From: a virus
Virus record (IMG/VR): IMGVR_UViG_3300029266_000379
Location: 1-22,997 of that record
Direction: 5' to 3' (one strand)
DNA length: 22,997 nucleotides
In this document: piece after piece, positions 964 through 21,950 of the stretch
Position numbering within the stretch: the stretch's first letter is position 1
Layout: every line of letters begins with the position of its first letter
Program-made: the position numbers and the translations under genes
The notes under the pieces: generated by a model
What the model was told of the DNA's origin: nothing
The model's input: the letters and a program-made list of their open reading frames with translations, nothing else
Databases searched by the model: none

Positions 964-1332
964 ACACTCATCATGCTCTATCTCTTTGATCCAGACCTCC
1001 GCTCTAGGGTTTTCTTTGTCTAAAAATCTACAAGAACTAATCTGTTTAAACTGCCTGTCGTTCTCGTAAAGCAAGCCCTGTAGGGCATCAAGCAGGATAC
1101 TGGGGTCAAGATCCTGTCGTCGTGATGGGTAGTAGATGTCTGCGTGAAAGGAAAGATCTCCCTCCAACATCTCATCCAGTTGAAACACTTGAGCTTTCAC
1201 ATCACTCTCAAACTGCAACGCAGATTTACTTTTGATGAAGCGCGGCTTACCTCCAAACGTAACCAATCTTCGGCTGTTTGATTTGGATTGTGCGGTTCCG
1301 TAAATTATTTTCTTGACAGATCTTTTATCCAT
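946..1332 (-). CDS. rusA: RusA-like Holliday junction resolvase
   Basis: RusA-family enzymes cut Holliday junctions left by recombination or replication. The 128-residue product has the family's size and its central signature: an acidic run D74-L-D76, then LLDALQG and YENDRQ (D92), as in E. coli RusA where Asp70, Asp72 and Asp91 are catalytic. The stretch between DLD and LLDAL appears two residues shorter than usual, and the lysine normally found there (Lys76 in E. coli) is not visible. The start is taken as the ATG at 1332, with GGA 4 nt upstream; a TTG at 1341 would add three residues. The gene stands head-to-head with the plus-strand operon, with only 32 bp between the starts, so promoters must overlap the opposite genes. 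Symbol given by family only. Confidence 0.8.
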   Translation of the reverse strand: MDKRSVKKIIYGTAQSKSNSRRLVTFGGKPRFIKSKSALQFESDVKAQVFQLDEMLEGDLSFHADIYYPSRRQDLDPSILLDALQGLLYENDRQFKQISSCRFLDKENPRAEVWIKEIEHDECGPPEA

Positions 1333-1364
1333 GTGTTCCAATCGTTACCCATACCTTTCGCAAC

Positions 1365-2246
1365 ATGGTAACACAAGTGAACTACACAAATAAGTTGGGG
1401 CTACCTGCTCCACTGGCTGCGGCCTTGACAAGAGACAGCTATAGCAAGGGCGATGCTTCGTTCTCTGCTACTGGGCTGTTGCGTCCACCAAGAATGGCTG
1501 TCCTGTTTGACGACCCCAACAACATTATGTTTCGTGATGTGTCTTCAAACCTGTGGACTTTGTTTGGCACGGCGGTTCACTCAATCCTAGAGGACTCAAA
1601 GCACCCTGACTTCATCACCGAGGAACGCCTGTACTGCTCTGTGGACGGCGTAAAGTTGTCAGGTGCAATAGACGTACAACACGTTCAACCGGACGGCTCA
1701 CGGATCTTACAGGACTACAAGACCCGCAAGGTTTATGGCGTGATGCACAACGACAGTGATGAAAAGCAACTGAACATCTACGCTTACATTGCGCACAAGA
1801 ACGGCATCGAAGTAAGTGGATTGCAGATAATAAACTTCATCAAGGATTGGAATAAGCATGACGCTTTGCGCAAGCCCGACTATCCGCAACATGACATATG
1901 GATTCAAGACATTGCGCTCTGGCCTACAGCTAAGACCGAAGCGTTTGTGAAAGAACGTATCACAGCACATCAGCAAGCTATCGCTGGCAATCTACCTGAT
2001 TGCACAGATGATGAGCGCTGGCTCAGAGATGAGAAGTTTGCTGTGATGAAGGAGAAGAGAGTACGCGCTGTGCGTGTGTTCGATTCGATGATAGAAGCTG
2101 AGACATTTATCTCGGCGCAGAAGGACGCAGACAAACACAGGGTAGACCATCGAAGAGGATCACCTCTACGATGCGAGCAGTTCTGCGATGTGTCTGATTA
2201 CTGCGACCAATTCGCAGCGTTTAAACAAGGAGAAGAAGTTGAGTGA
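1365..2246 (+). CDS. Cas4/RecB-like PD-(D/E)XK nuclease with cysteine cluster
   Basis: This 293-residue protein is a RecB/Cas4-type exonuclease candidate that would resect DNA ends for annealing or recombination. Motifs in order: H72 in FGTAVHSILE, D103 in GAID, D117-Y-K119 (the D/E-x-K pair in QDYKTRK), and Q135...Y139 (QLNIYAY), the usual RecB-nuclease order. Cysteines C213, C270, C274 and C280 near the C-terminus match the arrangement that holds a 4Fe-4S cluster in Cas4 and AddB proteins. ATG 1365 is the first start and has no clear Shine-Dalgarno. The next gene begins inside its last codons, 8 nt before its end, which implies coupled translation. There is no CRISPR array here, so this is a phage recombination nuclease rather than an adaptation protein. 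Cofactor and polarity are inferred. Confidence 0.85.
   Translation: MVTQVNYTNKLGLPAPLAAALTRDSYSKGDASFSATGLLRPPRMAVLFDDPNNIMFRDVSSNLWTLFGTAVHSILEDSKHPDFITEERLYCSVDGVKLSGAIDVQHVQPDGSRILQDYKTRKVYGVMHNDSDEKQLNIYAYIAHKNGIEVSGLQIINFIKDWNKHDALRKPDYPQHDIWIQDIALWPTAKTEAFVKERITAHQQAIAGNLPDCTDDERWLRDEKFAVMKEKRVRAVRVFDSMIEAETFISAQKDADKHRVDHRRGSPLRCEQFCDVSDYCDQFAAFKQGEEVE
2227..2232 (+). promoter_or_regulatory. Shine-Dalgarno supporting a TTG start at 2239
   Basis: AAGGAG stands 6 nt before TTG at 2239. It follows directly after a GTTTAAAC palindrome (2219-2226). It makes the TTG a better start than the upstream in-frame ATG at 2188. Confidence 0.7.
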
Positions 2247-2985
2247 GAACAAATTGCTGCAAGCAATTACCCATATGGAAAACCTTCCCGACTCGGACAA
2301 GGTTGGGATTAAGGGGAAGTTGTACGCACAGGTCACGACACGGGTTGTTGCTTTTCGCAAAGCCTATGGTGATAAGGGCAGGATCACGACAAAGATCCAC
2401 GCCTCGACTCCCAATAGGGTTTTGATTGAGGCGCAAGTTCACATCAGAGAAGGTGATGTTTGGCACTTGATCAGCAATGATTGGGCTGAAGAGCATCGTG
2501 ATGACGGCCCCGTGAACAAGAAGTCTGCCACAGAGAACTGCGCTACATCAGCGATAGGTCGCGCATTGGCTGCGGCTGGCTTGGGTGGTGGTGAGTACGC
2601 AAGCTTTGATGAAGTGGACTATGCCATCAACGAAAAGACCGGATCGTCTGGCAAGAAACAGGCAGCACCCGTAGAGGCCAAGCCGAAAGCGGTGCCGCCA
2701 GCAAAAAAGGCAGAAGCAAAGGCAGCGTCTCCCGTACCCCCAGCCGTAGCTGAAGGTGATGCAACTGCATCGCAGGCTTTCAAGTCAGATGCAAGCGTGG
2801 TCATAGACAATCTCGCTGGCTGCATTACAGCAGAAGAGGCGAAGGTAGTGATTGACGAATACTATGCGCCAATAAAAACTAAGTACGCAGATCGCCCAGA
2901 CTTTGAACCATTCAAGGAAAAGGTGCAGACCCGTATCCAACAAATCACAGCCAATGAAGGCAAAGCAAAGGGAGTTCCATTCTAA
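2239..2985 (+). CDS. Probable single-strand annealing protein (ERF/Rad52-type)
   Basis: The 248-residue product probably pairs complementary single strands after end resection. The folded part (about residues 14-130) has alternating strands and ends in a helix SAIGRALAAAGLGGGEYAS (about 104-122), similar to the SAIGRAL-type helix of phage ERF/Sak annealing proteins. An alanine/proline/lysine-rich linker (about 140-180) then joins a small helical C-terminal domain. The start is set at TTG 2239 because AAGGAG lies 6 nt upstream and this overlaps the previous stop by 8 nt; an ATG at 2188 is in frame but lies deep in the nuclease gene. Its place right after a Cas4-like nuclease and before a small acidic-tailed protein supports the role. 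The family is recalled, not searched; another ssDNA-binding replication protein is the main alternative. Confidence 0.65.
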   Translation: MSENKLLQAITHMENLPDSDKVGIKGKLYAQVTTRVVAFRKAYGDKGRITTKIHASTPNRVLIEAQVHIREGDVWHLISNDWAEEHRDDGPVNKKSATENCATSAIGRALAAAGLGGGEYASFDEVDYAINEKTGSSGKKQAAPVEAKPKAVPPAKKAEAKAASPVPPAVAEGDATASQAFKSDASVVIDNLAGCITAEEAKVVIDEYYAPIKTKYADRPDFEPFKEKVQTRIQQITANEGKAKGVPF

Positions 2986-3248
2986 TGGCATTTGAAAGAA
3001 AAGATTTACAAGGCGCGGCATTCAAGAACGACAAGAAGATCGAGGATTGGCATGCCGATTTTCGTGGCGACATATTAGTTGAAGGCACCGATTACTACCT
3101 TGACATAAGCAAGAAGGAGCCAGCAAATGGTGGCGCTACATTTCTCAGGGTAACTCTGAAGCCGAAGAATGCTGCGGCTAAAGCTGCTGTAGAAGGGGTT
3201 GTCGCCCAAGAAGCCAGCCCCTTTAGTGATGATGACTTTGGTCTGTAG
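2985..3248 (+). CDS. Small acidic-tailed phage protein, possible ssDNA binder
   Basis: This 87-residue protein has a compact N-terminal domain (FKNDKK...ADFRGDILVEGTDYYL...FLRVTLKPK) typical of a widespread small phage family, and an acidic C-terminal tip SPFSDDDFGL. Such a tail resembles the DDDIPF end of bacterial single-strand binding proteins, which recruits partner enzymes. It starts in a TAATG junction with the annealing-protein gene, so it is made from the same message. Observed: the coupling, size and tail. Inferred: ssDNA binding or a recombination cofactor. It could equally be a conserved small protein of other function. Confidence 0.6.
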   Translation: MAFERKDLQGAAFKNDKKIEDWHADFRGDILVEGTDYYLDISKKEPANGGATFLRVTLKPKNAAAKAAVEGVVAQEASPFSDDDFGL

Positions 3249-3250
3249 TT

Positions 3251-3535
3251 ATGAGCAAAATCAAATCATATGTGATGGACATTGAGTCTAAGCTAGACGA
3301 CAACCAACAGGCCGAAAGGCGTAGTCGGCTGGAGCTTGCCAAGATTAATGTGACAATAACGAAGCTGAGAGAATCAAAGCCGGTAGAAGACGAAGATCTT
3401 TTTACGGCTATTGATGATCGTTTAAACAACTCCTTGGCGTTGGTTAATGATCTTGAAGCACTACTAGAAACTGGCAATGCATTGGTGAAAGATTTTGGAA
3501 TCAAAATCGTGGGCAAAAAAACTAAGAAGTCGTAA
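3251..3535 (+). CDS. Small coiled-coil protein, unknown function
   Basis: I do not recognise this 94-residue protein. It is charged and almost wholly helical by appearance, with heptad-like leucine/isoleucine spacing (KLDDNQQAERRSRLELAKIN and NNSLALVNDLEALLETGNAL) and a lysine-rich C-terminus (KKTKKS). The ATG is 2 nt beyond the previous stop, with no clear Shine-Dalgarno, so translation probably depends on upstream ribosomes. It overlaps the following HNH-like gene by about 40 nt. A GTTTAAAC palindrome at 3420 lies in frame as Arg-Leu-Asn-Asn. Confidence 0.7.
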   Translation: MSKIKSYVMDIESKLDDNQQAERRSRLELAKINVTITKLRESKPVEDEDLFTAIDDRLNNSLALVNDLEALLETGNALVKDFGIKIVGKKTKKS

Positions 3536-3866
3536 GCATTTACAGCTTGTTAGGGATCAGGGCTGCTTGGTTTGTTACAGGCCAGCACAAGCGCATCACC
3601 TAACCTTTGTAGAAAAGGATGGGTTGCGCGGCATGAGGCGAAGCGGGGATCAGGATGCTGTTCCGCTTTGTGATGATCACCACAGACACCTGCATAGGCA
3701 TGGAAATGAAAAGCGGTGGTGGGCTATGGAAGGCATAGACCCCCTCGCTTGGATAGAAAATTTTACAAGCAACAAAGGATATTATCATGGCTGGAAAGAA
3801 GAAGACGACGACGACGGAAGCGAAGTCAACGAAGAAATATTACACAACAAAGAATCAAATGATTGA
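3495..3866 (+). CDS. HNH-like / DUF968-type zinc nuclease
   Basis: This 123-residue protein looks like a small HNH (His-Me finger) endonuclease. It shows C24-x2-C27 (GCLVC), H34-H35 (AHH), and C59-x2-H62-H63 (PLCDDHHRHLHRH), the order of zinc and metal ligands in phage DUF968-type proteins, then WWAMEGIDPLAWIENF. The domain begins at about residue 15, so a start near 3495 (TTG) is needed; no ATG precedes the domain in frame. The start is therefore uncertain. The acidic tail (EEDDDD...) shares about 80 nt with the next gene in another frame. In phages, such proteins accompany recombination genes. Nicking activity is inferred. Confidence 0.65.
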   Translation: MESKSWAKKLRSRKHLQLVRDQGCLVCYRPAQAHHLTFVEKDGLRGMRRSGDQDAVPLCDDHHRHLHRHGNEKRWWAMEGIDPLAWIENFTSNKGYYHGWKEEDDDDGSEVNEEILHNKESND

Positions 3867-4329
3867 GCAGCTTCACGCAAACATTGAAGCCGTTAACAAT
3901 CAGCATCGTCTGGCAGTTCAAGACATTGAGATAAAGCATCAGGAAGATATTGATGCAAAGGACGACGAGATCAGTGTCCTTCAAGCTGTTGTTGATGAGG
4001 GAGATGCGCTAGTCGATGAGACTATGGATCGTCTTAATTTACTGGAATCAAGGCGCTTCTCTGAATGCTCAACCATTGATGAGTTGTGCAATCACCTGTC
4101 ACCAGAAGACTTGAGGCTGCTATTTACCGCCCGAAGAAACAGCCTTACGTTTGGCATCCGAGGCGAGGGGGGAGAGGATTATCTCGTTAATAATCTATCG
4201 CTTGCTTGGCTTGAGGATGATCGGCCTGATATGCCCGTGATATATACGGATAGCGGCATGGTTAAGTTTGTTTTGGAGCGCCCTTACAGTAACAACTCAA
4301 GCGCTCACCTCCTCATAGATGAAGAGTGA
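3787..4329 (+). CDS. Coiled-coil protein of unknown function
   Basis: This 180-residue protein is not recognised. It begins MAGKKKTTTTEAKSTKK, a basic low-complexity arm, followed by a long helical segment (about residues 25-80, with Q/E/D heptads) that should form a coiled coil, then a globular C-terminal half (SECSTIDELCNHLSPEDLRL...). The start is well supported: AAAGGA lies 8 nt before the ATG. Its first 80 nt overlap the HNH-like gene in another frame through a GAC/GACGAC run. Its end overlaps a 58-residue gene by 11 nt. Confidence 0.75.
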   Translation: MAGKKKTTTTEAKSTKKYYTTKNQMIEQLHANIEAVNNQHRLAVQDIEIKHQEDIDAKDDEISVLQAVVDEGDALVDETMDRLNLLESRRFSECSTIDELCNHLSPEDLRLLFTARRNSLTFGIRGEGGEDYLVNNLSLAWLEDDRPDMPVIYTDSGMVKFVLERPYSNNSSAHLLIDEE

Positions 4330-4495: not shown

Positions 4496-4941
4496 GCGCG
4501 GAGAACTATACCGAAAGCTTTGAGGGTAAGAAGTACGCATACCGACAGACCAAGGATGGCATGGTCGTATCCTTTGTTGTCCACCCAGATGACATGCCGA
4601 AGGAGATGGCTACCGCACAGATAGGTCAGCGATACATGGTCGTGTGTGCGCAGATTGATGACTTTGAAAATCCAATACCACCAAAGGCAACTACCGATGG
4701 TAATCGCGCAGTAGCTAGGGCTAACCTAATATGCAAAGATGAATCGTACATTCAGTGGGTGCGTTTAAACAACAGCCAGTGGCATGTTGTTGATGAGTCC
4801 TTGGATGATGTTGATTACGCAGCAGAAGTTTTACGGTTCGTCTGTGGTATAGCGTCACGATCTGAACTGAAAGGAAGTGAGGATGCTAGGAAGAGACTTG
4901 TTGATCACCTTAAACATTTTGAGATAGAGGTCTTGCTATGA
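4492..4941 (+). CDS. Conserved-looking phage protein, unknown function
   Basis: This 149-residue protein begins in ATGA overlap with the previous gene and ends in ATGA overlap with the HTH gene. The N-terminal half is beta-rich with a VSFVVHPDDMPKEMATAQIG segment, then GQRYMVVCAQI. The C-terminal half is helical (AAEVLRFVCGIASRSELKGS...KRLVDHLKHFEIEVLL), which fits a small DNA-metabolism or recombination accessory protein. I do not recognise a characterised family. A GTTTAAAC palindrome at 4763 reads Arg-Leu-Asn-Asn. Confidence 0.75.
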   Translation: MSAENYTESFEGKKYAYRQTKDGMVVSFVVHPDDMPKEMATAQIGQRYMVVCAQIDDFENPIPPKATTDGNRAVARANLICKDESYIQWVRLNNSQWHVVDESLDDVDYAAEVLRFVCGIASRSELKGSEDARKRLVDHLKHFEIEVLL

Positions 4942-5204
4942 GTTGGTACTCAGATGAACTAAGAAGATTGCGCATGGATCAGAACATGTCGTTGCAGCAG
5001 GTAGCTGACAAATCAGGATCAACCAAAAGCTATGTGAGTCAGGTTGAGCTTGGCAAAAGAAAGCCCAGCTTTGAGTTGGTTGAGACTATGGCGAAAGCCT
5101 TGGGCGCTACTATATATATAAAGCTAGAAAACCCCGAACTCCCGCCAGCCATAGCGCCGAAGAATAAGAAGAGGGCTTCGATAGCTAGTAGATTTATACT
5201 GTGA
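4938..5204 (+). CDS. XRE-family helix-turn-helix regulator
   Basis: This 88-residue protein is a DNA-binding regulator of the Cro/C1 (XRE) type. The HTH spans about residues 5-60: LRRLRMDQNMSLQQVADKSG (helices 1-2), then STKSYVSQVELGKRKPS (recognition helix with the usual S-x-I/V-S-x-x-E-x-G-x-R pattern) and ELVETMAKALG. No cleavage or dimer domain of a lambda-type repressor follows, only about 25 basic residues. It overlaps both neighbours by 4 nt. Its target is unknown. The dispersed GTTTAAAC palindrome is a candidate operator only because it is symmetric and enriched; nothing in the sequence links them directly. Confidence 0.9.
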   Translation: MSWYSDELRRLRMDQNMSLQQVADKSGSTKSYVSQVELGKRKPSFELVETMAKALGATIYIKLENPELPPAIAPKNKKRASIASRFIL

Positions 5205-5533: not shown

Positions 5534-5593
5534 CAGGCCAAGGGACTTCCTCCCTATTAGCGGTTTCCCGTCGCCGTGGTCGGACAGGCGGGG

Positions 5594-5923
5594 CTACTTG
5601 CCAAACTTCTGCTTCTGCGATTTAGGTGGGGACTTTTTACTTCCACCTTTTCCGCTCCAAAATAGTTTGTCTGCCCAGTAGGCACCACTGGTTTTGCCTT
5701 TAGCAATGTTCTTCCCGTGACGCGCCTTGAAACTTTTCCGAGCCTCATCGCTATAGTTATGGCCCATCTTCTGATCACCAAACCGTATGACCTTCATCTT
5801 AGATCCATCGCGCACAGCCACTACAGCCTTCTTGGTCTTGTGACTTGGGGTGCGCTTGGGCTTGTTTAAACCTGATAGCCCAACCTTTTTGAGTCTATTC
5901 TTTTCCGCGTCAGTCAAACTCAT
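5594..5923 (-). CDS. Small basic phage protein, unknown function
   Basis: This 109-residue protein is rich in lysine and arginine at both ends. The middle is a recognisable small-phage-protein block: KVIRFGDQKMGHNYSDEARK, then SFKARHGKNIAKGK and AYWADKLFW. By recollection, such blocks (FGD...SFKARH...YWA.K.W) recur in small proteins of aquatic phages, with no established role. It is the last gene of the late message and overlaps the preceding gene by 4 nt (ATGA). The basic charge suggests DNA contact or packaging, which is an inference. A GTTTAAAC copy at 5864 encodes Gly-Leu-Asn-Lys. Confidence 0.75.
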   Translation of the reverse strand: MSLTDAEKNRLKKVGLSGLNKPKRTPSHKTKKAVVAVRDGSKMKVIRFGDQKMGHNYSDEARKSFKARHGKNIAKGKTSGAYWADKLFWSGKGGSKKSPPKSQKQKFGK

Positions 5924-6174: not shown

Positions 6175-6380
6175 TAGGTGTAGCCCCCACCAGCATCTTT
6201 GTACGCCTTAGCCAACATCTGGGCTTTACGCGCCGACCACTGCCCAGCCTTGCCACCTTTGGTGCCTGACTTTATGCGGCTGAACTGGCGCTTACGCATA
6301 GCTGGCTTGGTATAGTTGCCAGCCTCGTTAACCTTAGACTTGGCTTTTACTTTGCCGCCCTTCTTGTATCGTTTAAACAT
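6174..6380 (-). CDS. Small basic protein with KGGKxGQWSARKAQ motif
   Basis: This 68-residue basic protein contains TKGGKAGQWSARKAQMLAKA and ends YKDAGGGYT, a block that I recall as common in small phage proteins and sometimes fused to DUF5872-like segments, here encoded by the next gene. GGGGAG lies 8 nt before the ATG. The start codon and codons 2-3 are built on a GTTTAAAC palindrome (6371-6378), giving Met-Phe-Lys-Arg. The gene lies between the endolysin and the two other basic genes. The function is unknown. Confidence 0.75.
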   Translation of the reverse strand: MFKRYKKGGKVKAKSKVNEAGNYTKPAMRKRQFSRIKSGTKGGKAGQWSARKAQMLAKAYKDAGGGYT

Positions 6381-6415
6381 TTACAATGCTCCCCGGTTAC
6401 CCGGCGCGTTTAAAC
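6371..6415. repeat. Close pair of GTTTAAAC palindromes around a gene start
   Basis: Copies at 6371-6378 and 6408-6415 lie 37 bp apart (about 3.5 helical turns) and bracket the short leader of the 68-residue gene. This is the only close pair in the window; the next closest spacing is over 500 bp. Confidence 0.9.
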
Positions 6416-6418
6416 AGG

Positions 6419-7564: not shown

Positions 7565-10500
7565 TTACGGCCTTGTGTAACTGCTTTGTGCTGGTGATTG
7601 CTGAGTATCTTTGCGACGAAGACGCTCGGTCACATTTCTCGACGTTCTTCCCGCTTGGGTAAGCGCAGCTTTCTTCTGCTTGTAAGATGATAAGACCTCG
7701 TAGTAGTTGCCTATTCTTCGCTCACGCTCTTGTACCGACAAGCTCTGATCCTTTCTCAACCTGTTGATCTGAGTAGTAATCTTGCTCTTCTCTCCATCCA
7801 AATAGCGTAGGGACATTTGTATTTGCAGAGGATCTACGTTGGTAAGGTTTAAACCAACAAAGCGCATGATTGCCTGACCCAAGGTATCGGCCTCTATGCC
7901 GTTTGCTTTCCTGTCTCCCTTCAGCGCAGTGTTTAACTTTGCTACCGCTCCATACTCTGTGTTCAAGAATCCGGGCAAGAGGTACTGGTTCGCAGCCCAG
8001 AACATAGCGTCTGTCATTTTGCCGCGACGATAGAACGGTTTCTCAATCGCTCCAGAAACAAACATAGGATCTTCTGGGTTCACGATTGGACGCTGTGTAA
8101 ACGGGTCTAAGTTTTGAGCAGCGCCAGCCAGCGACCACGCTGGGCCACCAAACATACCCAATGTAGATGTCACATCTTTGATGCTGAAGCCTTGATCTTC
8201 TGGCTTCTTTGCACCGAACAATTGCTTGCCCCCTGATACAGAGTTAGCAATTAATCCAGTAAATGATCCCCAAGGATACAGGTAGCTGGTATCTAGGAAC
8301 TGTAGCCTTCCCTTTGAATCCCTTGCTGGGACGGGGATTAGGCCCGGATTTCCCCGAAGATAATCAGGCATGGCTTTCTTTACAGCCTCATACTCTTCGT
8401 CATCAATATCAAACGCACTCATAAATAATGATGGTAACGCATACGATAGCGCGGCATATGGAGCAAACTTCATTGGATTGCGAAGCGCGGTCTTTGCCAG
8501 AACAGGCAATACCTTGTACTGGAATGTTAAGAATGGAATACCTACAGGGCTTTGACGTATAGCTCGTACTGTCTGAGGAACGTCAGAGTAATCAAACAAA
8601 TACTCTTGCGCTCTCATGAATGCGTCATCTGCTGTGCCGCCCTCTCGTTCCATAACATCAATAGCAATAGCGGTCTTGCCTACAACCTCAATCCCTTGGT
8701 AAAGCTTACTTGCCTTCTGCGCCAATCTTGTCCATGTGTTTAGCTTTAGCCAACCAATCATGCCTAGATCTTTAGCGTCAACAGACCGCAAAAAATCTAG
8801 CATATCGTCCTGCATGAGAATCAATTCTTGATCAGTGAACGAGGATTGTTGTACGCCTCGCGCAATCATTGCCGCGTAGTGCTTAGAGTTCTCAAAGTCT
8901 TTGTTGTTGTACGCAACAATTTCTCTAGCAGCCTCAACCATTCTAGGTATAACCCTGTAAAATGGTACGCCAGATAAATGCATAAGGATCGCGTTGCTGA
9001 ATGTGTTACGAGCAATAGTCGGAGGGTTCAATGGAACCTTAATAGTTTTCCATATCGCCGTAGCTTTACGCCCCGTTGACAGAATATTCACATAGGCTTG
9101 GTCACCTATGTTAAGCATTGCGGATGAGGCAACAACATCATCAAATATCTCTTGACGAACCAACCTTCCAGCCAACATGCCGTACTGCCTACCCCTTGGA
9201 ACACGTTTAAACTCAAAGCCATATGTCTGCGTGATGCCAGATATATCTATGTTTGGATCGGTGATGTACTGCAAAACGCCGCGCTCTTCAAACGTAGTCC
9301 GAACCATACTGTCTATTTGCGCAGCATCAGATCGCAACTTGACGGCCTTGTCTGGATCAGCAGCCTCAACCGCAGCAGCAATGCTAGTCAGCGTATTAAC
9401 TTGATCAAGTAAATAGAATCCACTTACTTTCTGCGGCTTGCCATCCGGCCCTGTGTATTCAACAACAAACTGATCATCTGCTACAGTCCACGCCTCATTG
9501 CCAGCGACAGAGTTCATAAACTCAATAAACTGCAAGTCTCTAACTGGACGTTGTATAGCCCTAGACACCAAGAACGCAGGGTCAAGTTCGTTAATAACCC
9601 CTAACGCCTCTTGAGCCTGATCCGTCATGTCATCTTTACGGGGTTTTAGATAACTAAATCTAGCATCCATCTTGTCCTCAAGAACATTCTTTAGATATAT
9701 TCTTGGCAAGTAGGATCTTCTGTACTTGTAGAAGCTGTTCGCAGGTAGAAGGCCAGCTTGCATAAGCTCTAGGCCCAACTTCTCAATCATGTCTTTTGCT
9801 TTTGCAGAAGCCTTGGCTGCGCGAGGATCGAGAGCGCCCAACTGCTGCAATAACACAGCCTCTTGCTGTGCGTCACCTGTTGTAAGGTATTGGAATATCG
9901 CGCCTCTAAGCGCCTCAGTAGAAGCCCTGTTCTTGCTGCCTGACCTAGTAAGAAACTGATTACCGATCTCATCTCTGAGGAAGGTTGCAATGTTTGTTGA
10001 CTGCGCAACGGTGCCAAGGTACTTGGCTCGCTCAAGGTAGAACTCTTTCTTCTGGGGCATATCTTTGAGGGTGTTGAAGAACGGAAGGCTGTTTATAAAG
10101 TCTATGCCCTTCTGTCTGCCATTTTTCATAACGCCGCGCAAGTTGTCAGTACCTTGGTTGGTCGCTGCTGTACGCTCGTTTTCTATTTTGGCAAAATATA
10201 TCTCGCTTGGCGCACTTACTTGAGGCGAAGTCTTCATGTCTTCTGTAAGTGTGTAAAGGCGCAATGCGTTTCGTGAATTAGATACAGGTATCATGTACCT
10301 GTTTTGATACTCATCAGAAAACTCCCGCGCAGACTTCAGATCGCCAGTGTCTTCGTTTCTAAACATCGGCATCCTAGCTCCCTCTGGAGCGTCCTTATCT
10401 AAAGGAATGCGTTTAAACCCAGTTTCTTCTGCAACCTTGTCTATGATTGAATCATTTTCTGCAAGAGCTTCTTTTAAAGCTGTTGTCTCACCGCTTATTG

Positions 10501-13500
10501 CGGCAATCGGACGACCTCTTAATGGTTGAGACTGTATGTCAGACGCTTTTATAATAGTCGCCTTGCCTTCTGGAAGAATATCGCTTGTCCCCTCATACTG
10601 ACTTGCTGGCAAAAACTCTCCGCTTGAGGAGCCTAAATACAAAAGATTGTCTTTGCTGTTGAATGCAATCTTGTCTTTTATTTTCTTTATTTCTTTATTA
10701 CTTCCTTCGTGAAGACTTGCCAAAGCATTGTCTAATGCCTGCGGAATCTTTACGTCATAGACATTTTTAAAACCTCCGCCAACAGGTATATCAATAGCGC
10801 CTGTCGTTCTGTCCTTTGCGCTTGTTACTAACTTTGCTACGCTTTTTTGATAGTCAGTTAAGTTTGTTTCTCCATTGGCAATCTTATTGGCTTCCGCTTC
10901 TACAGACACAGCTTTGTCTTGGATGAACTTAATAAAGTTTTCTTGATGAAACTCTTTGCTTCTCGTTGCAGGGTTGTCTAGCTCATTACGCACAAGGACA
11001 GCAATATCTTCACCCAACCACTGATCAAGTGACGGGTTGCCTTCCATAGTTATGTTGTTGTTGCCAAGCTCTACTGAATCTCTAAAGAAAGACCCTCCTA
11101 CTTCGCCGCCTTCTCGCGTCTTGCCAATCACTGGCTGTGTGTATGAGGCTATCCAGCTTTGAGCAAGTTGTGGATACGCTTTTGTTATAGCTTTTATTAT
11201 GGCTAGTTGAGCAAGCTCTGAGCTAGTTGCTTCCGTAGCTGGCATAAACTCTGCCTTAATTCCTTGCATTGCTTTTTTTATTGCGGCTGCATCAAAAGAA
11301 AGCTGCGCCGAAGGTTCGCTGACAAAGTTAGCAACCTCTTCTTGAGCCTGTTCAAGTTTGTTTTGTGCAATAACATCACGCTGTTCTTCATCGACATTTA
11401 AACTAGACGGTGCCTCAAGGCCACCAAGCGCTCTTGCGTCGTCAAACTCTCCCGTATTAGGGTCTGGGTACGCGGGTTCAAATGATCCGTCTTGACGAAG
11501 CTCATTAAGCTCCTCTTGAATTGCCGCCTCTGTTAATACGACACTGACATTGCCATCCCCATCTACAGTTACTGCGTCAGATCGTAAAAATTCATTGTCA
11601 AAACGAGTGTCAGCTTCAAACTCCGCTGCGTTTAAACGTATTGATACTGCGGGTATTCCGCCGGGTAAAGAGTTAACGCTTTCAATTATACCGGACTCAA
11701 CTAGCTCATGAGTGTTGGTAAACTTTGTCAGCACCAACCCATCAATGTTTGCTTTTATTGCGTTCCTGTATCGCTCAACTTGAAGGTCGCCATTGCTTAC
11801 TGCGATATGATCGTAACCGCCATTGATCGCCATGCGCACAAGCTGATGCATTGCGAACTGTAACCGAGAGTTTTCTTTTTTCATTGGCAGGTCAGGCACT
11901 AACTTTCCGTACACCTCACTTGCAAACATATCCATCATTGGCCTGACAAGATTTTTTTCTTCCCTTGTAAGCGCCTCATAGTCGGGCTGACTTATCTCGT
12001 TGTCTGCATACAAATAGTCCGTTGCCATTTCGCGCATTTTTCTTTGCGCAGCCTGATGCACATCGGATTGAATTTCTTCTACAACAAGAACTGTGGTTCC
12101 GTCATCTAATACAATGTCTGCCAATCTCATGTGCATAAAAGCATTCCTGACATTAGGGAAGTGCATATGCTCAATGCCCTCGCCTTTTGTCAGCGGGGTT
12201 GTGTAAATAATATCCCTGTATCCTTCTAGCTCCTCCAATGCTTCGGTTGCGTTTTTATTCAAAAACAAATCACTGCCAACTTCAGCAAGCTCCCTACCGC
12301 CCATTGTTGTCCAAGCATAATAAAAATTAGGTTGACCGCCAGAAAACCCCATGCTTCCTTGCTGACCACCAACATAGCCAAAGCCAACATCCAAAGTGCT
12401 TGTCGGTGAAAAGCCAGCTCGCTCATTTTTGAAATCAAAATCTTGGAAATTTACTCCGTTACTATCAGTGTCAACTAACGTCAACCCTAGTAACGTCTTG
12501 TTAAATGGAGAGTTTTCATTTGCGTCTTCTGCGGAAATAGCATTGGCTAGGTTAAGAAGTTTTTTGGTGGTGCCGTCATTAAAAGTATCTACCCTTGATT
12601 GAACTTCGGCGGCATTTCCCCTTAACTCTGGAATTACTTGCTCTAAATCTCTGACAGCTTTAACTATAGATTCTGGGAATGCTTGATCTGCAACCGCTGG
12701 ATTAGGAACTAGACTCACTACATTAATTGCAGTAGTCATTACATCAACAACGCGAGCCGCACCCCTACCGAGACGAAGTGAGGTTATTGCGTCATTTGCT
12801 ATTTGTTCATACGCCTCGTTATTTCTGTCTTGCCTTAAAGCGTCTTGATATTCCCTTTCTGTTTGCGCATCTCTGTTCGCACCAATCGGCGCTCCATATA
12901 TTTGGATCTCTACTACCTGCTCTCTGTCTTCAAAGAACTCTAGCAGGTCTTCACCCTTGACCGACTTGTCTGCTGGCAATCTGTTTAAATAATCACCAAG
13001 CCCAGAGTCATTAAACTCATCAACTTTAACGCCAGTTAAACGGCCAGCAACAGATGAGCCGCTCTTGGTTTCTTTGATCCTGCCCCATGCATCAGGTAAA
13101 TATTTTTGTTCTCGTTGTTCTTCAAGAATTCCTTTCAGCTTAGACTTAAATGCTGGGCGCTGCGGAGTGTCGGGGCTAAACGTAAAGTTCCTGCCCATAA
13201 CACCCGTTACTGTAGATGACGCAGCTATTGGCCCTTGCTTTATTACAGCAAGCGGCGTTGCAGAACTCATTCCTGTTGGGTCGGAAGCCAGCATTACACT
13301 CTTGATGCGCTTCACTGAGTCTTTGTCTGGGGTTCTCTTGCCAGCCCTGCCCTGACGTACCTGCTCAAACACTTGCTCAAGCTCCATAGGGATAAACTCC
13401 CCAGTGAAGTTTGATTTAAGCTGTTTAAACAACCTAGCTATTTTTGCAAATGCTCTGCGTAATGGCGGTGTGAATTCTGGTGGTATCTTTCCGTCAATAT

Positions 13501-16500
13501 CTAACCCTCTATTATATAGGGCAGAAGAATAAGCAATAAGCTCGTTAAAGTTTTGGAACTCATTGCCCGACATGACAAGGTCGTATTGCTTTTGACCAAG
13601 GTGCTCAAGGACGATGCGCTCTAATCGTGGTTGATTGGCTATAAGCGACTTGATCTCAGAGTCATTGAGGAACCCGTTGTTAAATAAGAAGTGGGTTGCC
13701 TCATGGTACGCTACGTTTTCTGGGTCTAGGTGTCCGTCAGCAACCGATACAGCTACAACATTCCCCACCTGTAGTCCAAGGGCTTCGTCATACCCTACTT
13801 CTTGCCCATTAATTAGAAACTTTCTTTCTGCCCCTTCACCTGTAACTTGCCCGTAAAGCTGACTCGCTACTACAAGGTCAGCTTCTGGCGCTATATTGTT
13901 TACAATCTTCTTAATTCTTATGAATTGATTGTAGTCAATTGGCTTGTCTTTCTGGGGGACAAGTATGCTTGGCCCTTGAGGGGTATTAAGGTTTGGAATT
14001 GCAGTCAATGCTACGTTAGCATCAGAAGACTGCTGCGCTGGCCTAGCGAAATCTATATCGCCAACCAATTGATCTTGAAACTCAGGGTCTACAGAGAATT
14101 CTGTACGGGCTGTATTGTGATCGGCACCGTTGTCTCGTAGCTTTCTATACGCAGCCATGCCTATCTGCAAAGCCTTTGCGTCACCGCCAGAAAGCTCACC
14201 TATTGTATCTCTTATGTCAGCTTCTTCTGCTTGCGAAACGACAGCTACCGAGTCTTTCTGAAGCCTTCCTCTCTTTTTCTTCTTTGGCTTTTGACCCGTA
14301 TCGTCTTGAGCTATCTGTTCAAGCTCTGCCTTAACTTGAGCGGCAGGGTCTTGAGGAGGAACCAAGTCTAGCGTTATATTTTGAGTTGACTCTGAGTCAG
14401 GAGTGGTTGTATCTACAGCCGTAGGCACCGGAGTAAACCTATAGCGTCCATTACCTAAAGATACTACCTCTCCAGTTTTAGCTAACTCTGTTACAGCGTC
14501 GTTTATAGGATTAAACCCTGACCGTAACTCGTTTTGAACTTCGCTGATCGTGAAGTCGCTTTGCACAGCAGTAGAAGATCTAACATCATCTAATGTATCG
14601 AAGGCTGTTTTGTAGCTCTTTCTGTCACCACTGTCTTCGGCTTCAGCTTCTGGCTGAACTACTTCAACTTGAGCAACTTCCGGCTGAACCGCTACGGGTT
14701 GAGCGGCTTCTACTTGTGGAGCTTGTTGCGGAACAACTGTGGGTATTTTAAATACTGATTGATTCGCTTTTCTTGCCGCTTCACCACGCTCTTTAACTTC
14801 AGCGGCAATCGTAGTACCCATGATTCGTATGTCTGCCTCGGTCATTCCGGGCAACGCAGCTTTTAGTTCGTTAATTATTGAAGCATCTTTCTTGGATTTC
14901 TTAACGCCATCCCTAACAATATAAAGCGCCTTATCTAAAAGCGATTCAAACTCAGGGATCTCATCTCTATATCGAGGCTTTGAATTTGCTACATCTTTTG
15001 AGTCAAATACAACTGGCTCAAACGCTGCTGGCTCTTCAGCTACAGCCTCTTCTACCACAGGTTCTGGCGTTACAGGCGCTGGTGCTACAGCCTCTGGTGC
15101 TACAGCCTCTGGTGTTACAGGCGTATCCGCTGTTGCTACAGGTGTGGGCGCTGGCCCTTCAGACGCTTTAGTAGAGCCTTCAGCTAACTTTGCAGCCCTT
15201 CTTTCTATTTCTTCTTCGGTCTTGGCTAGATCGTCAGCAGCTTTATTTGCATCTTTCTTTGCAGCTTTTCTTCCTTGATGCGTTACAACTTTTTCATGGA
15301 TCAACGCTTTTTGATTAGAATCTAAATCTGATATTGGAGTGTTAGCATCTCCGGTTACTTCTTCAATGTATTGTTTTTGTTCTGTTTTATTTACCTTGTT
15401 GCGTTTAAACGCCTTCACTAACACTGAAGCTTCGATCTCTGGCCCGCGAGATACGTCTGTATCTGATACTACCCTGCCCAATACAGTGTCTTGATTGTCG
15501 CCCATAGTGCCAGCAATAAAATCACCGATCTCACCGCTATCAACTGCAAGCCCAGTAGCTACATCGCTTTCATTCTTTGCTGCTTTTTCGCTGATGTTCT
15601 GATCAAAGTCAGGGTTCCTGCGCTTCATCTCGGCTCTAATGGCTTTAATGCGATAAGCTTTGCCAGCCGACATGGTGACTTCCATCGTGCCGTCAGAAGA
15701 TTGGAATATATTAAGAGCCTCTCCCAAGCTCATATCACCAGCATCGACAGCATCTAGCGCGTATTGTGGCAGCATCTGCCGTGTCTGCTCATCAATTAAT
15801 TCTGTTGCGCTAAAGTCGCCTAACTCTCTGTTGTTAATCTTAAATCTAGGGGTAAGCAAATCCTTGTCTGATGCAAGAGAGTCGCCAGACTGCTCGTCAA
15901 CCGATTGATCTCTAGGCACATTTACAAGGTCGTCGCCTACAGACAGGGTTACAAAGTCATCTCCAAAGTCTACAACTTGACCCGCTTGTTGGTTGCCATC
16001 TGAGTCGTAAAATGCAACATCTTTTTCTGATGTTTGCATATCTTTAAGAAACTCTTCATCTAAAGACTCAAGCTGTTCAGTACCTTGATCCTCTTTGTCA
16101 ATTTCCTTTTGGTTCTTAGCGTACTTAACACGACGACCAAACAACATATCGACAATAGAACCAGCACCAGCGCCATAACCAAAGTCTGACAACGCGCTGT
16201 CACCAATGGGTTGGTCTGGGTTGTAATTGCTTTGCGCTGAAAGTTCTTGCAGCATCCCAGAGATAGCCTCTTGACCACCCTCTGCTCCAGCATTAGTTAT
16301 GTTCTCAGTGGCTCTTCTTATATACCCATTGGTAACATTCTTTGCCATTGTATTGGGTATGCCACGAAGCAGTATCTCCATTGGAGCTAAGTCCAACAGA
16401 CCAATACCAAGTCCAGTAGCTACCGCTAGGTTTCTTTTAGCTGTGGACACTTCATTACCTGCATCTTCATATGCTTCAAGCATTTGATTTGCAGTACCAC

Positions 16501-17232: not shown

Positions 17233-19380
17233 CTAAGGGTAGATTGGCGCTGTGTTTTGTGTGATGTAATCAGTTGAAATCCAAGGATGCTTTCGTTTAA
17301 ACGACATCAATGCAGCCTCTTGCTGCGCGGTTCCTGTAGCCCTCATTAGATCACCAAGCTCTGGCCCAAATTTTTGAAGCATTGCCATTTGCCCAACACG
17401 ATTATTATCCAAATAAGAAGCTTGTAATGATGCGGCTAATTGAGCTTCTTGCTGATCAAGAGGTAAAGTCTTATCTACATCCTTAGCAAACTTACCCATA
17501 TCCTTGATTAACGTTTTAACGGCTCTGTTTTCTATTTGCTGTGCAGCAGGAACTCCCATCTCAGCATAACCTTGCGATGATAATTGTACGTCCATTTCAT
17601 AAGGGTCTACTGTAGAGCTATAATCTACATTTCTAAAGCTTGCTTGAGCATCCGTAAAGTCATTGGATGTCTTTTGTTGGAATGCCCTGTAATCGTTTAA
17701 TTGAGTAGCATTTAATTTATCAACTTCTAATAGGTGATTTCTATTATCAGTAAATCCTTTCTGAATCATTTCAAGTCGCCGCTGACCAAGTGTTGAGTTG
17801 GCGGTAGCAATTGTCTGTTGAAACTGTCTGGCATCCTGTATCTTTTTGAGAGTGTTTTCTTGTCGTTTAAACGATGTATTAGCTTTGCCTTGCTCTCTTG
17901 CGTATTCATCCATTGCGTGTTGATACAGTTCTTTCTGCTCTTGGCCTGTCATCTTGTTCATCACGCCAGCAGCGCCGCCAAATCCTTTGCTAATTGATGT
18001 TAAGAAGTCAGGGCTTCCAGATCCAGCGGCATCAAAAAATGCTTGAGCTACACCTAGAGACGTTTGTTTTTTAAGGCGGTCTTTAATGTTTTCTCTTGTA
18101 GGTAAATTATCTTCTAACGTTTTAAGTTTATCTACCGAGTCATCTACTTCTTTGTTATAAGCTTTTTCTCTTTTAATTAATGTTTGAAACATTTCATTGT
18201 CTAGGTTTGAAGTAATTTTATTTGTTACACTGTTTGCGGGGTTGCTAATATTAAACAATGCTGAAGCAAATCCATTACTGCTTTGTTCTTTATTAAACAA
18301 TATTGGGTCATTTGAAAGTTGCGCGTCGTCTATTGCCGTAGTTGGCACATTACTGTTTGTAGTGTTACTCGGCCCTGCGGCACTAGTATTAATTAAACCG
18401 GCACTTGGCCCTCCGGTACCAGTAGATTGCGCTTGTAATAACGACGCGGCTCTTTGCGCTTGTGTTTGAAAGCCTTGCCCTAGCGCAGAGGGGTTTTGCC
18501 CAGCAGGAATAAATGCTGGTACGTTAGTATTGCTTGATAGTTGTGTTAAGTTACCGACACTACCCCTTGGCAAGCCACCAACACTCTTTAGCCTTTGTGC
18601 AGTTAATGCGGTTTGTACTGCTGCATTTTGTGCATCTATTTTACTTACAGGGTTTGGAATAGGCTGTTGCAAAGCTTGCGCTCCACCTCCAACAACTAAT
18701 GTGCTTGACTGAAAGGGTTTATAACCAGTTCCAGCTTGATTAAACACATCTGAATACTGATCTAAGTTTCCAGCCTTTTGATACTGAGCAAAACTAGCCG
18801 CTAAAGCATCTTCAGTTAATCCAAAGTCATCAGGCAAATATGTGTCTTGGCTTGCCAGCAAGTCTATTGGGTTGTATCCCAACTCATCTTCTAGCATTTG
18901 TAAGTAAGCAGGGGAATATGCGTTTCCAATAGTGCCGCCACCAGCAGTGCTGTTAGCAAAGCGTCTGATCAAACCACCTGATTGCATACCGCCAGCACCC
19001 ATTGCTTGAGCGAGCATTGCCATATCTGGAGCAGCAGGAGCACCCGGCTGCATTCCCGGAGGAGGCGCGGGTAGCCCAGCACCTTGCTGTGGCATAGGAG
19101 GCATTGCCGGTTGACCCATAGGTTGCCCCATAGGCTGTCCCATAGCCTGCCCTTGAGGCGCAGACTGACGCATAGCCATTTCTACCAGTTGATTAACAAC
19201 AGGTTGTGACGGGCTTTGCTGACTTGACTGAGCGTCTTGACGAATATCATTACGAGCTTTCATCTCGCTTGCAGCAATAACGCTTTCAATACCAGAACCA
19301 GATTGTGCAATTTGCGCTAACGTCGTGTCAGGTAAGTCCTGAGTTCGCTCGGCTATTCGTAACAGATCTTCCATTGCCAT
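17233..19380 (-). CDS. Large virion-type protein with Met/Gly/Pro-rich segment
   Basis: I do not recognise a named family for this 715-residue protein. It begins MAMEDLLRIAERTQDLPDTT, a helical head with IAQSGSG. A low-complexity stretch follows at about residues 75-135 (MGQPMGQPMGQP, PAPPPGMQPGAPAAP), then GLIRRFANS. The C-terminal half (about 390-715) is mainly long charged helices. Its position between a repeat-rich 685-residue protein and the giant protein fits an internal or ejection virion protein; that is an inference. The start is exceptional: the palindrome GTTTAAAC (19381-19388) directly abuts the ATG, with AGGA just before the palindrome. In-frame copies at 17295 and 17865 encode Ser-Phe-Lys-Arg. 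Confidence 0.7.
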   Translation of the reverse strand: MAMEDLLRIAERTQDLPDTTLAQIAQSGSGIESVIAASEMKARNDIRQDAQSSQQSPSQPVVNQLVEMAMRQSAPQGQAMGQPMGQPMGQPAMPPMPQQGAGLPAPPPGMQPGAPAAPDMAMLAQAMGAGGMQSGGLIRRFANSTAGGGTIGNAYSPAYLQMLEDELGYNPIDLLASQDTYLPDDFGLTEDALAASFAQYQKAGNLDQYSDVFNQAGTGYKPFQSSTLVVGGGAQALQQPIPNPVSKIDAQNAAVQTALTAQRLKSVGGLPRGSVGNLTQLSSNTNVPAFIPAGQNPSALGQGFQTQAQRAASLLQAQSTGTGGPSAGLINTSAAGPSNTTNSNVPTTAIDDAQLSNDPILFNKEQSSNGFASALFNISNPANSVTNKITSNLDNEMFQTLIKREKAYNKEVDDSVDKLKTLEDNLPTRENIKDRLKKQTSLGVAQAFFDAAGSGSPDFLTSISKGFGGAAGVMNKMTGQEQKELYQHAMDEYAREQGKANTSFKRQENTLKKIQDARQFQQTIATANSTLGQRRLEMIQKGFTDNRNHLLEVDKLNATQLNDYRAFQQKTSNDFTDAQASFRNVDYSSTVDPYEMDVQLSSQGYAEMGVPAAQQIENRAVKTLIKDMGKFAKDVDKTLPLDQQEAQLAASLQASYLDNNRVGQMAMLQKFGPELGDLMRATGTAQQEAALMSFKRKHPWISTDYITQNTAPIYP

Positions 19381-19388
19381 GTTTAAAC
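19381..19388. promoter_or_regulatory. GTTTAAAC between Shine-Dalgarno and ATG
   Basis: On the minus strand the order is AGGA-C-GTTTAAAC-ATG, so the palindrome forms most of the spacer of the ribosome site of the 715-residue gene. A protein bound to the DNA, or pairing of the self-complementary RNA, could affect expression; neither is shown. Confidence 0.6.
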
Positions 19389-19391
19389 GTC

Positions 19392-21449
19392 CTATGCTCT
19401 TCCAAGGGATGCTGCCCCACCCAAGAAGTTAAGTAGTTGGCCTGATTGATTAGGGCCGGGGCCGCTTACTTGCGAAGTTTCAGTTCCATATGCTTGCGGC
19501 TGTAAACCTGCTAATAGTTGCGCATAAAAAGCTAATTGCTCTTTAGGGAAGTTTTTCTGCCCTAAGAAATCTTGATACTGACTGTCAAGTATTCGCTGCT
19601 CGTCTGCTCTCAAATCTGCTCCCATAGATGACAATGCGCCAAGGCGTTGTAGATCCATAGTTTGCTCAATTCTATCAGCTTCTATACCTGATAATGCAGC
19701 TTTATCTCCGCGAGCCAAAGCCATTGCATACGCCCTTTGATTAGAAAGATCCGCTTGCAAGCCTTGTTGACCAGCAGCCCTAGAAGCAGAATCAGCAGCT
19801 ACTTGAGCTTGTAATGTTTGCGCACCACCCGCTCTTGAAGCAGCGTCAGTAGCTATGTCAGCTTGTATTTGTTGCGCACCTGCCGCTCTAGCCGCAGCAT
19901 CAGCTAACTGCTGGCCTTGCAAGGTTTGTGACCCAGCAGCCCTAGCAGCCGCATCAGCCAATTGTTGGCTTTGCAAGGTTTGTGATCCAGCGGCTCTGGC
20001 AGCAGCATCAGCTAACTGTTGACCTTGTAAAGTTTGCGAACCAGCGGCTCTAGCAGCAGCGTCAGCCATTTGCTGGCCTTGTAGTGTCATTGCGCCTTGG
20101 CGTTGTTTTGCTGCATCTGATGCAATTTGTGCTTGCAAGCCTTGCGCTCCACCCGCCCTTAATGCCGCATCTCTAAGTTGTTGAGACTGTAATGTTTGTG
20201 ACCCAGCGGCTCTAAGAGATGCATCTGATAATTGCTGCGCCTGCAATGATTGAGATCCCGCAGCGCGTCTAGCTGCGTCACTTGCAATCTGTGCCTGTAA
20301 ACTTTGAGCGCCAGCGGCTTGACCAAATCTTGCCGTTGATTCTTGCGCACCAGTTCTCATTTGAGAGGCCGCTCTTCTAGCTTGATCCGTCATTCCCTGC
20401 ATACGAATCTCGCGGTCAATGTCCTGACCCGCTAGTCCTGATGCTTTGTCAAATCCAGCCGCTAGTTGCGCTGCTTCTAAGTCTTGCTGCCTTGTTAGGA
20501 AGTCGCCTTCTGCTTGGGCATTTGCAAGCACGCCTCTACTACCAAAAGAACTAGCTCCACCTTGTTGTGAAAGCTTTGCATTTCTTGCTGCTGTTTGTTC
20601 TTGAAAAGACTTTAAAGATCTATCTCTTGCTCTATCAAGAACCTGCTCTGTGTATGGATTTTGATATTCCGCAATTCGATTTGTTAATCTATCGGCAGAA
20701 AATTGTTGTGGATCATAGTCAGATGTAATTTGTGCGCCTGTAAATCCGGCCCTAATGTCTTGAGGGTTATACCCAGAAGTCATTTCTCGGCCTTGATAAC
20801 CACTTCCAAATGCAGCATTAGCAGGATTGTAAGCGCTGCTTATACCGCCTGCTGTATACCCACTACCAAAGTTGGCTTTTAAAGGAGAGTAGCCACCGCC
20901 AAAGTCGGATTTTGCAGGAGCATACCCACCGCCAAAGTTAGCGTCTTTAGGAGCATACCCACCGCCAAAGTTAGCGTCTTTAGGAGCGTAGCCGCCGCCA
21001 AAGTTAGCGTCTAAGGGGGCATATGATTCAGTTATTGTGCTGCCACTATATCCACTATCAAAGCTTTGATTAGGCAATCCAGTAGCAGGATTAATTGCAT
21101 TCGGATTATAACCAGTACTTACAGTTTTATAATCGGGTACAAATTTGCCTGTAGCAGGATCTACTGCATTTACATTTTTAAAATAGTCTTGAGCGCCACT
21201 TACGCCTTCCAAAACTCTACTACCTACAGCATTAATGCCTTGGAATGCTTGTTGTTGTTCTGGGCTATACCCAGCTAAACGCTCCCCGCCATATGGGACA
21301 TAGTCTTGTTGCAACAAAGCATCTGCCATTTGCATTTGCTTTTGAAGATAAGGATAAAACTCTTTAGGTATGTTTGAGTTTATAACTTCTGTTGTACCGG
21401 ACTGCCTTACGTTTGAAGTTGAACTACCACCGCCGCTGCTACCGCCCAT
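19392..21449 (-). CDS. Repeat-rich 685-residue phage structural-type protein
   Basis: This 685-residue protein begins with a glycine/serine-rich tip, then YPYLQKQMQMADALLQQDYV and PYGGERLAGYSPEQQQAFQG, a head region I recall from internal or tail-associated phage proteins. Residues 143-197 are five 11-residue repeats (YAPKDANFGGG type), continuing in degenerate form to about 250. Residues 378-575 are eleven tandem 18-residue helical repeats (AAGSQTLQGQQLADAAAR type). A helical tail follows. AGGAGGT lies 6 nt before the ATG, the strongest ribosome site in the late block. It overlaps the GNAT-like gene by 11 nt. A long rod or internal virion role is an inference from the repeats and position. 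Confidence 0.75.
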   Translation of the reverse strand: MGGSSGGGSSTSNVRQSGTTEVINSNIPKEFYPYLQKQMQMADALLQQDYVPYGGERLAGYSPEQQQAFQGINAVGSRVLEGVSGAQDYFKNVNAVDPATGKFVPDYKTVSTGYNPNAINPATGLPNQSFDSGYSGSTITESYAPLDANFGGGYAPKDANFGGGYAPKDANFGGGYAPAKSDFGGGYSPLKANFGSGYTAGGISSAYNPANAAFGSGYQGREMTSGYNPQDIRAGFTGAQITSDYDPQQFSADRLTNRIAEYQNPYTEQVLDRARDRSLKSFQEQTAARNAKLSQQGGASSFGSRGVLANAQAEGDFLTRQQDLEAAQLAAGFDKASGLAGQDIDREIRMQGMTDQARRAASQMRTGAQESTARFGQAAGAQSLQAQIASDAARRAAGSQSLQAQQLSDASLRAAGSQTLQSQQLRDAALRAGGAQGLQAQIASDAAKQRQGAMTLQGQQMADAAARAAGSQTLQGQQLADAAARAAGSQTLQSQQLADAAARAAGSQTLQGQQLADAAARAAGAQQIQADIATDAASRAGGAQTLQAQVAADSASRAAGQQGLQADLSNQRAYAMALARGDKAALSGIEADRIEQTMDLQRLGALSSMGADLRADEQRILDSQYQDFLGQKNFPKEQLAFYAQLLAGLQPQAYGTETSQVSGPGPNQSGQLLNFLGGAASLGRA
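19725..20318 (-). repeat. Eleven tandem 54-bp (18-residue) coding repeats
   Basis: The repeats run in exact 54-nt register from 20318 down to 19725. The consensus is AAGSQTLQGQQLADAAAR. Some copies are identical at protein level but differ at synonymous positions, so the repeat unit is kept by selection on the protein. Eighteen residues equal five turns of an alpha helix. Confidence 0.9.
20859..21023 (-). repeat. Five tandem 33-bp (11-residue) coding repeats
   Basis: Five copies of a 33-nt unit encode YAPLDANFGGG, YAPKDANFGGG (twice), YAPAKSDFGGG and YSPLKANFGSG. More degenerate copies with Y-N-P and F-G-S-G continue to about 20700. The strict 33-nt phase within one frame shows a protein repeat rather than a CRISPR array. 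Confidence 0.9.
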
Positions 21450-21942
21450 TAGCTACCTCCTTGAGTAACTCGTCTGCATTTACTGATAACAAATCAGACT
21501 TATCTACAGAGTTATTTTCTTTATTTTCAACTGGCTTGGTCATTACAATAAATTCTTTAGTAAACCCAAGATCTTTCCAAATCTTTTCCATTGCCGGAGC
21601 GGTTGATGTTTCTAATCCATCCATACCTAACTCAATTGCAAAATCTTCTACCATCTTAAATCCTTCACCCATCCATTCTTTAAGACGAATTCCACTTAAA
21701 GTGTTTAGATCTAAGTATGTTTTTCTTGGGTACGACTTAACCCCGCAAATAAAGAATCCTACCGCGCCTTCTTCGTCTCTAACGACCCAAACAAAATACG
21801 GGTCTTCTGCTATCTGATGAAAAATATCAGCAACAATAAATCTACCATGACTTCTTTTTTCTAATTTTTTTGCAAAGTGTGCTATCTCAGGCCATATAGC
21901 AATAATGTTATCTTTTGGTATTAAGTCAAAAGTAAACGCCAT
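21439..21942 (-). CDS. GNAT-like N-acetyltransferase protein
   Basis: This 167-residue protein reads as a GNAT-fold acetyltransferase: an N-terminal helix pair, central strands (DPYFVWVVRDEEGAVGFFIC), a helix after the usual acetyl-CoA loop position (GIRLKEWMGEGFKMVEDFAI), then LGMDGLE and the closing KIWKDLGFTKEFIVMTKP, which matches the common GNAT end. The acetyl-CoA loop (Q/RxxGxG/A) is weak: only RLKEWMGEG is present. GNAT-like genes are known among phage virion gene clusters. The substrate is unknown. The palindrome GTTTAAAC abuts its ATG, and AAAGG precedes it; the same palindrome contains the stop codon of the upstream gene. Confidence 0.7.
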   Translation of the reverse strand: MAFTFDLIPKDNIIAIWPEIAHFAKKLEKRSHGRFIVADIFHQIAEDPYFVWVVRDEEGAVGFFICGVKSYPRKTYLDLNTLSGIRLKEWMGEGFKMVEDFAIELGMDGLETSTAPAMEKIWKDLGFTKEFIVMTKPVENKENNSVDKSDLLSVNADELLKEVANGR

Positions 21943-21950
21943 GTTTAAAC
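21943..21950. promoter_or_regulatory. GTTTAAAC joining a stop codon to the next ATG
   Basis: On the minus strand the upstream gene ends GTT-TAA inside the palindrome, and the GNAT-like ATG follows at once, with AAAGG about 10 nt before it. The arrangement is the same as at 19381, apart from the stop codon. Confidence 0.6.

Follow-up and report, generated by a model that had tools for sequence, protein, structure and literature searches.

A palindromic octamer repeated across phage genomes and its association with an SprT-like gene

The octamer in the window

The DNA analyzed here (the window) is a 22,997-nt stretch of a marine phage, IMG/VR record IMGVR_UViG_3300029266_000379. It contains 17 exact copies of GTTTAAAC between positions 1044 and 21950, about one per kb of phage DNA. 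The octamer is its own reverse complement, and sites are given without strand. The first five lie inside genes: 1044..1051 in a RusA-like gene (as Gln-Phe-Lys-Gln), 2219..2226 in a Cas4-like exonuclease gene and a 265-aa open reading frame (ORF), 3420..3427 in a 94-aa gene, 4763..4770 in a 149-aa gene and 5864..5871 in a 109-aa gene. Site 6371..6378 immediately follows an ATG (Met-Phe-Lys-Arg), and 6408..6415 is intergenic. Six sites (7847..7854, 9205..9212, 10411..10418, 11630..11637, 13423..13430 and 15403..15410) fall within the gene at 7565–17215, whose 3216-aa product has no Pfam match. Two more, 17295..17302 and 17865..17872, lie in a 715-aa gene, and 19381..19388 is intergenic, immediately 5' of that gene's ATG. 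The last site, 21943..21950, straddles a gene edge immediately 5' of the ATG of a 167-aa gene. Between these last two sites, positions 19392–21449 encode a virion-like protein rich in glycine, whose tandem YAPKDANFGGG-type repeats are visible as repeated 12-mers. A search for tRNAs as a hint to the host found none.

The initial annotation of this DNA had put the expected number of copies at 0.4–0.5, and the enrichment holds up. Dinucleotide shuffles of the window (n = 100) average 0.49 copies with a maximum of 3, none of the 100 reaching 17, and Markov models of order 1, 2 and 3 expect 0.45, 0.42 and 0.82. Higher orders expect 6.6–12.7 only because those models include the octamer's own 6- and 7-mers. 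GTTTAAAC is the sole enriched palindromic octamer in the window, the runner-up having 3 copies. One-base variants number 12 on the plus strand, and just three of them are changed at an end, as had been noticed.

In coding sequence the octamer is read as xxG-TTT-AAA-C (Phe-Lys) nine times and as GT-TTA-AAC (Leu-Asn) six times, in a tally where site 2219 sits within two overlapping ORFs. All six Phe-Lys-Arg tripeptides in the listed genes are written with the octamer. An earlier count of six in seven stands for these six; the seventh case lies outside the called genes. Sites occur on either side of the strand switch and are spaced more evenly than in the random model (coefficient of variation, CV, 0.45 versus 0.92, p 0.0005), with regular spacing also within the 9.6-kb gene.

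Conservation among relatives

A search with the exonuclease gene gave 46 contigs, all of them enriched at about one site per kb and none with a comparable excess of another palindromic octamer. Near-complete relatives carry 36–48 copies per 42–57 kb. Terminase identity separates two groups: phages at least 72% identical to the relative G018 are enriched and those at most 69% identical are not. The cultured distant relatives are the pelagiphages HTVC023P/HTVC027P, 023Pt_psg01, DSL-LC04 and MinM2; the four that were fetched have 0–3 copies.

Positions are also kept. In codon alignments of orthologues within the clade of the window (the window, G018, G014, G008 and G004), 38–71% of sites are exactly conserved, compared with 2–9% of other aligned 8-mers; a BLAST-based estimate was dropped as biased towards exact words. 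Clade C, represented by G024 with 28 motifs, is enriched and shares only 0–16% of positions, so sites also turn over. The flanks prefer a pyrimidine on the 5' side and a purine on the 3' side (0.85 in dense genomes); in cultured phages the flanking base is C at a frequency of 0.76 and T at 0.20.

The initial annotation had proposed, from the use of two coding frames, that selection acts on the DNA. The nine Phe-Lys and six Leu-Asn readings, the intergenic sites, the equal richness of every close relative and the conserved positions support selection on DNA at exact GTTTAAAC, genome-wide and in relatives. The octamer can encode Phe-Lys and Leu-Asn, and composition or codon usage might in principle yield such repeats by chance. 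That explanation is already contradicted by excesses of >10-fold to >100-fold across genomes of widely differing G+C, by the two frames and the intergenic sites, and by the retention of exact positions; we give it next to no chance.

Association with an SprT-like gene

We scanned for two copies of GTTTAAAC 370–400 bases apart to find further enriched contigs. There are many, and the densest has as many as 19 copies within 4.7 kb. Some have no detectable kinship to the phages of the window, and one motif-rich group outside this family is akin to Streptomyces phages. In an all-against-all comparison of 31 motif-rich with 7 motif-poor records, an SprT-like protein was present in 24 of the 31 and in none of the 7, ranking first (most widely shared) among clusters exclusive to motif-rich records. 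A search with the phrog_6361 profile was positive for all 10 motif-rich records >40 kb that were tested and for none of 8 motif-poor or motif-free complete phages. No SprT gene was found in a few short motif-rich fragments (G050, G058, G061 and G068). The profile matches 12 of 12 aligned members of the protein family, and Pfam SprT-like matches 8 of 12 at E-values up to 0.05. The gene itself falls outside the window: the window record is a fragment that breaks off before reaching it, as is that of the closest longer relative, so the gene's presence in the phage of the window is deduced from G018, G014, G008 and G004.

The association also holds in reverse. With the SprT protein as the sole query we fetched 80 loci, which are not phylogenetically independent; they contain 522 copies of GTTTAAAC against 14.6 expected (36-fold), and the runner-up palindromic octamer reaches 3.4-fold. 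Leaving out four loci from motif-selected contigs gives 455 against 13.3 expected. These 80 loci were found by a pattern with KQ-TR and therefore represent the KQ-TR class. The motif thus accompanies one phage gene, SprT-like phrog_6361, among unrelated phages, almost always.

Cultured phages and an actinophage variant

Cultured phages with both GTTTAAAC and the SprT gene infect Dinoroseobacter, Pseudanabaena, Escherichia coli, Klebsiella and Pseudomonas. R5C, R26L and Pan1 have 17, 20 and 16 copies against 0.11–0.16 expected at 62–63% G+C. Enrichment is modest in KA2-1 (7 against 0.6 expected) and ep3 (4 against 0.7), and Persinger has 4 copies. Actinophages with SprT carry GTGTAAAC instead: Yang 20, UNTPL 39, Percival 14 and Emotion 8 in 20 kb, with 0.09–0.21 expected. 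An unbiased list of 8-mers in these actinophages ranks GTGTAAAC first. Of the phages counted here, R5C infects Dinoroseobacter, ep3 infects E. coli and Yang infects Arthrobacter.

In several of these phages a site precedes the SprT gene. Three of them, ep3, KA2-1 and Persinger (enterobacterial and Pseudomonas phages), have it 26–27 bp 5' of the SprT start, in the two enterobacterial phages directly 3' of a TATAAT box. In Pan1 the distance is 81 bp, and GTGTAAAC precedes the gene in Yang, Emotion and UNTPL. Most metagenomic loci show no site close 5' of the gene.

Other repeats were seen in the same material. Pan1 (L495–L498) and R26L (L527–L530) have a second repeat, about CTATAACTCGCTTATA, whose pieces recur 6–12 times; in Pan1 one such element directly follows the GTTTAAAC site that precedes the SprT gene, and the element is perhaps a promoter. 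Bordetella phage CN1 (L524–L526) has 8 copies of a AGAAGTATAGATAGA-like repeat. Among the records, OQ594354 (L070, 69% G+C in the part read), OL906435 and PP438419 share a length of 65,014 bases and match identities under three cyanobacterial hosts, and their host assignments may be doubtful.

The octamer could instead mimic the host genome, as the initial annotation suggested by analogy with HIP1, or mark DNA for modification. It is palindromic and is the PmeI site, and HIP1 of cyanobacterial chromosomes is a precedent. Searching bacterial genomes with the terminase yielded three binned contigs only. In a metagenome-assembled genome that includes a motif-rich relative's contig we counted 78 copies over 2.8 Mb, some of them on that contig itself, fewer than the 141 of the reversed control, although the host link is weak. 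The motif tracks a phage gene through different hosts, and no methyltransferase is prominent in the table of shared clusters. We consider mimicry or a modification mark highly improbable. The contig L245 (PAUP01000067), placed in the bin Cytophagaceae bacterium SAT149, belongs to a motif-rich phage of the window's family, and the remainder of that bin is not enriched.

Parts of the SprT-like protein that follow the octamer

Three cultured phages, Dismas, CN1 and Epa5, have an SprT homologue and neither octamer. All three homologues are without the KQ-TR motif, and those of CN1 and Epa5 are also without the zinc-ribbon cysteines. Using these three proteins as queries we fetched 80 further loci, which were then dereplicated. 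Dividing the protein tails by KQ-TR proved too strict, and we divided them instead by whether they have the zinc ribbon. The 41 loci with a ribbon contain 84 copies of GTTTAAAC (4.4 expected) and 91 of GTGTAAAC (7.1 expected); the 18 without contain 1 (1.7 expected) and 2 (3.2 expected). For both octamers pooled the counts are 175 against 11.5 expected with the ribbon and 3 against 5.0 without (per-locus Fisher p 1.3e-5), a comparison that is partly post hoc since it was those three cultured phages that led us to make the split, under a criterion revised once. Among loci with the ribbon, there are 172 copies against 10.4 expected where a [TSA]R motif is present and 3 against 1.1 where it is not. 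Two loci, L652 and L681, have a good zinc ribbon and the KQ-TR motif, yet zero octamers.

The protease motif behaves differently. HExxH is found in most members and is absent from motif-rich G045, G057, G060 and G065, as well as from G052, G063 and G067. Three HExxH-less proteins from motif-rich phages (L459:5375–5917, L461:11711–12235 and L478:13176–13769) keep RE-WL at the start, PHA, Q-TR and the cysteines at the end. Homologues that keep the protease motif without the C-terminal zinc ribbon show no octamer enrichment. This pattern makes the zinc ribbon the most likely part of the protein to read the octamer.

The nearest structural match to a model of the G018 protein (pLDDT 88) is human SPRTN (6mdw), with Z 8.0 across 106 residues, at the tool's unspecific level; Foldseek with this model gave no significant fold match. 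The fold matches span residues 5–144, and the zinc-ribbon end lies outside them.

Another host or phage factor could bind the octamer, and the SprT-like protein might then cooperate with that factor or act on it, for instance to remove it from the DNA. We know of no sequence-specific DNA-reading member of the SprT/SPRTN family, which favours such a role. So does the fact that SPRTN-type proteins are proteases acting on DNA-bound proteins (6mdw title). However, the octamer stays rich where the protease motif is missing and is not enriched where the ribbon is missing, and in another lineage of the SprT-like protein the site is GTGTAAAC. The hosts span Proteobacteria and Actinobacteria, and a common host factor is therefore unlikely. 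Binding by a separate factor is an unlikely explanation overall.

Arrangement of sites and repressor systems

In the window, as in Pan1, R5C, R26L, Yang, UNTPL and Percival, sites are more regularly spaced than expected at random (CV 0.37–0.61). In G051, G056, G057 and G060 sites are clustered, in G057 and G060 within a small-gene region. The actinophage site GTGTAAAC has mixed orientation (6:14 in Yang, 20:13 in UNTPL) in genomes with nearly all genes pointing one way. Sites 5' of gene starts are in excess (Yang 7 against 1.2 expected, UNTPL 11 against 2.0), although most sites in both phages are intragenic.

With tens of sites in a genome, and some of them next to gene starts, the arrangement recalls a stoperator-like system in which a repressor, such as the XRE protein at 4938–5204 or a small protein with two helix-turn-helix (HTH) motifs, blocks transcription at the sites. 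The XRE protein, the candidate binder of the initial annotation, is absent from motif-rich G024 and only ~29% alike in G022 and G023, and was rejected. Inside the window's family the two-HTH protein is perfectly associated with the motif: all motif-rich members with a contig extending to the gene have it, and motif-poor kin do not. But it is inherited together with the whole replication module and has no convincing homologue in motif-rich contigs of other families, and it too was rejected as the binder. Mixed orientation in one-way genomes and regular spacing, even through the 9.6-kb gene, also speak against repression, and the parallel with L5 stoperators drawn earlier does not extend to orientation where this can be read. 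A repressor system of this kind is very unlikely. The two-HTH gene adjoins the primase-helicase gene in the window's species (L035:2054–2521, left of the window), and its recognition helix, SRQ[YW][VI]Y, is almost invariant. Integrases occur in Yang and Persinger; none was seen in the window.

Discussion

The reading we favour, as probable, is that phage SprT-like phrog_6361 recognizes GTTTAAAC, in the extended form pyrimidine-GTTTAAAC-purine, with the C-terminal zinc-ribbon region as the candidate reader. Direct binding of the protein to the octamer is the step we infer. The phage would keep sites at intervals of ~0.3–5 kb genome-wide, within and between genes, and some phages would add one at the promoter of the SprT-like gene. 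Speculatively, the even spacing may serve a genome-wide job such as docking an SPRTN-like protein along phage DNA. The docked protein might organize that DNA or clear bound proteins before replication, transcription or packaging, and the promoter site might let the SprT-like gene regulate itself; both suggestions are speculative. The sites may therefore form a docking system that spans the genome, combined with local regulation.

Several known systems resemble this one in part. Stoperators of Cluster A mycobacteriophages (L5, Bxb1) are 13-bp sites, mostly in one orientation and mostly not at promoters, some being operators (PMC6550527). As there, one short site recurs tens of times over the phage genome; the phage-encoded DNA-binding protein is known for stoperators, and here the SprT-like protein is the predicted binder. 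Unlike stoperators, whose repressor is a different protein, the present site accompanies an SprT-like zinc protein and is an 8-bp palindrome or near-palindrome of no fixed orientation, evenly spaced in several phages. HIP1 (GCGATCGC) of cyanobacteria is likewise a highly iterated 8-bp palindrome found chiefly in coding DNA, but it is chromosomal, whereas GTTTAAAC belongs to phages and accompanies a phage gene. Chi and KOPS are also octamers over-represented across a genome; they are non-palindromic and orientation-dependent, whereas GTTTAAAC is palindromic and GTGTAAAC occurs on both strands. With the SPRTN/SprT zinc metallopeptidases the phage protein shares a predicted zincin fold and a cysteine-rich C-terminal part, though several phage members are without HExxH.

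The open-access literature we searched holds no description of GTTTAAAC, GTGTAAAC or GTTTACAC in phages, of an SprT–octamer link in phage genomes or of a HIP-type phage motif, which is weak evidence of novelty. One Arthrobacter phage paper names an SprT-like protease as a common gene, without any motif.

More tentatively, and with somewhat less than even confidence, we suggest that many unrelated phage families, with hosts in Proteobacteria, Actinobacteria and probably other groups, share an undescribed system in which an SPRTN-fold protein, sometimes protease-less, reads an octamer kept genome-wide as docking points for organizing or patrolling DNA. A common phage gene, phrog_6361, often named SprT-like protease, is now tied to a concrete candidate DNA target, and the link is open to testing in E. 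coli, Dinoroseobacter and Arthrobacter phages. If true, a zincin fold would have become a DNA reader with sequence specificity, and protein docking sites would be distributed along the genomes of many phages, a layer of organization absent from the literature searched.
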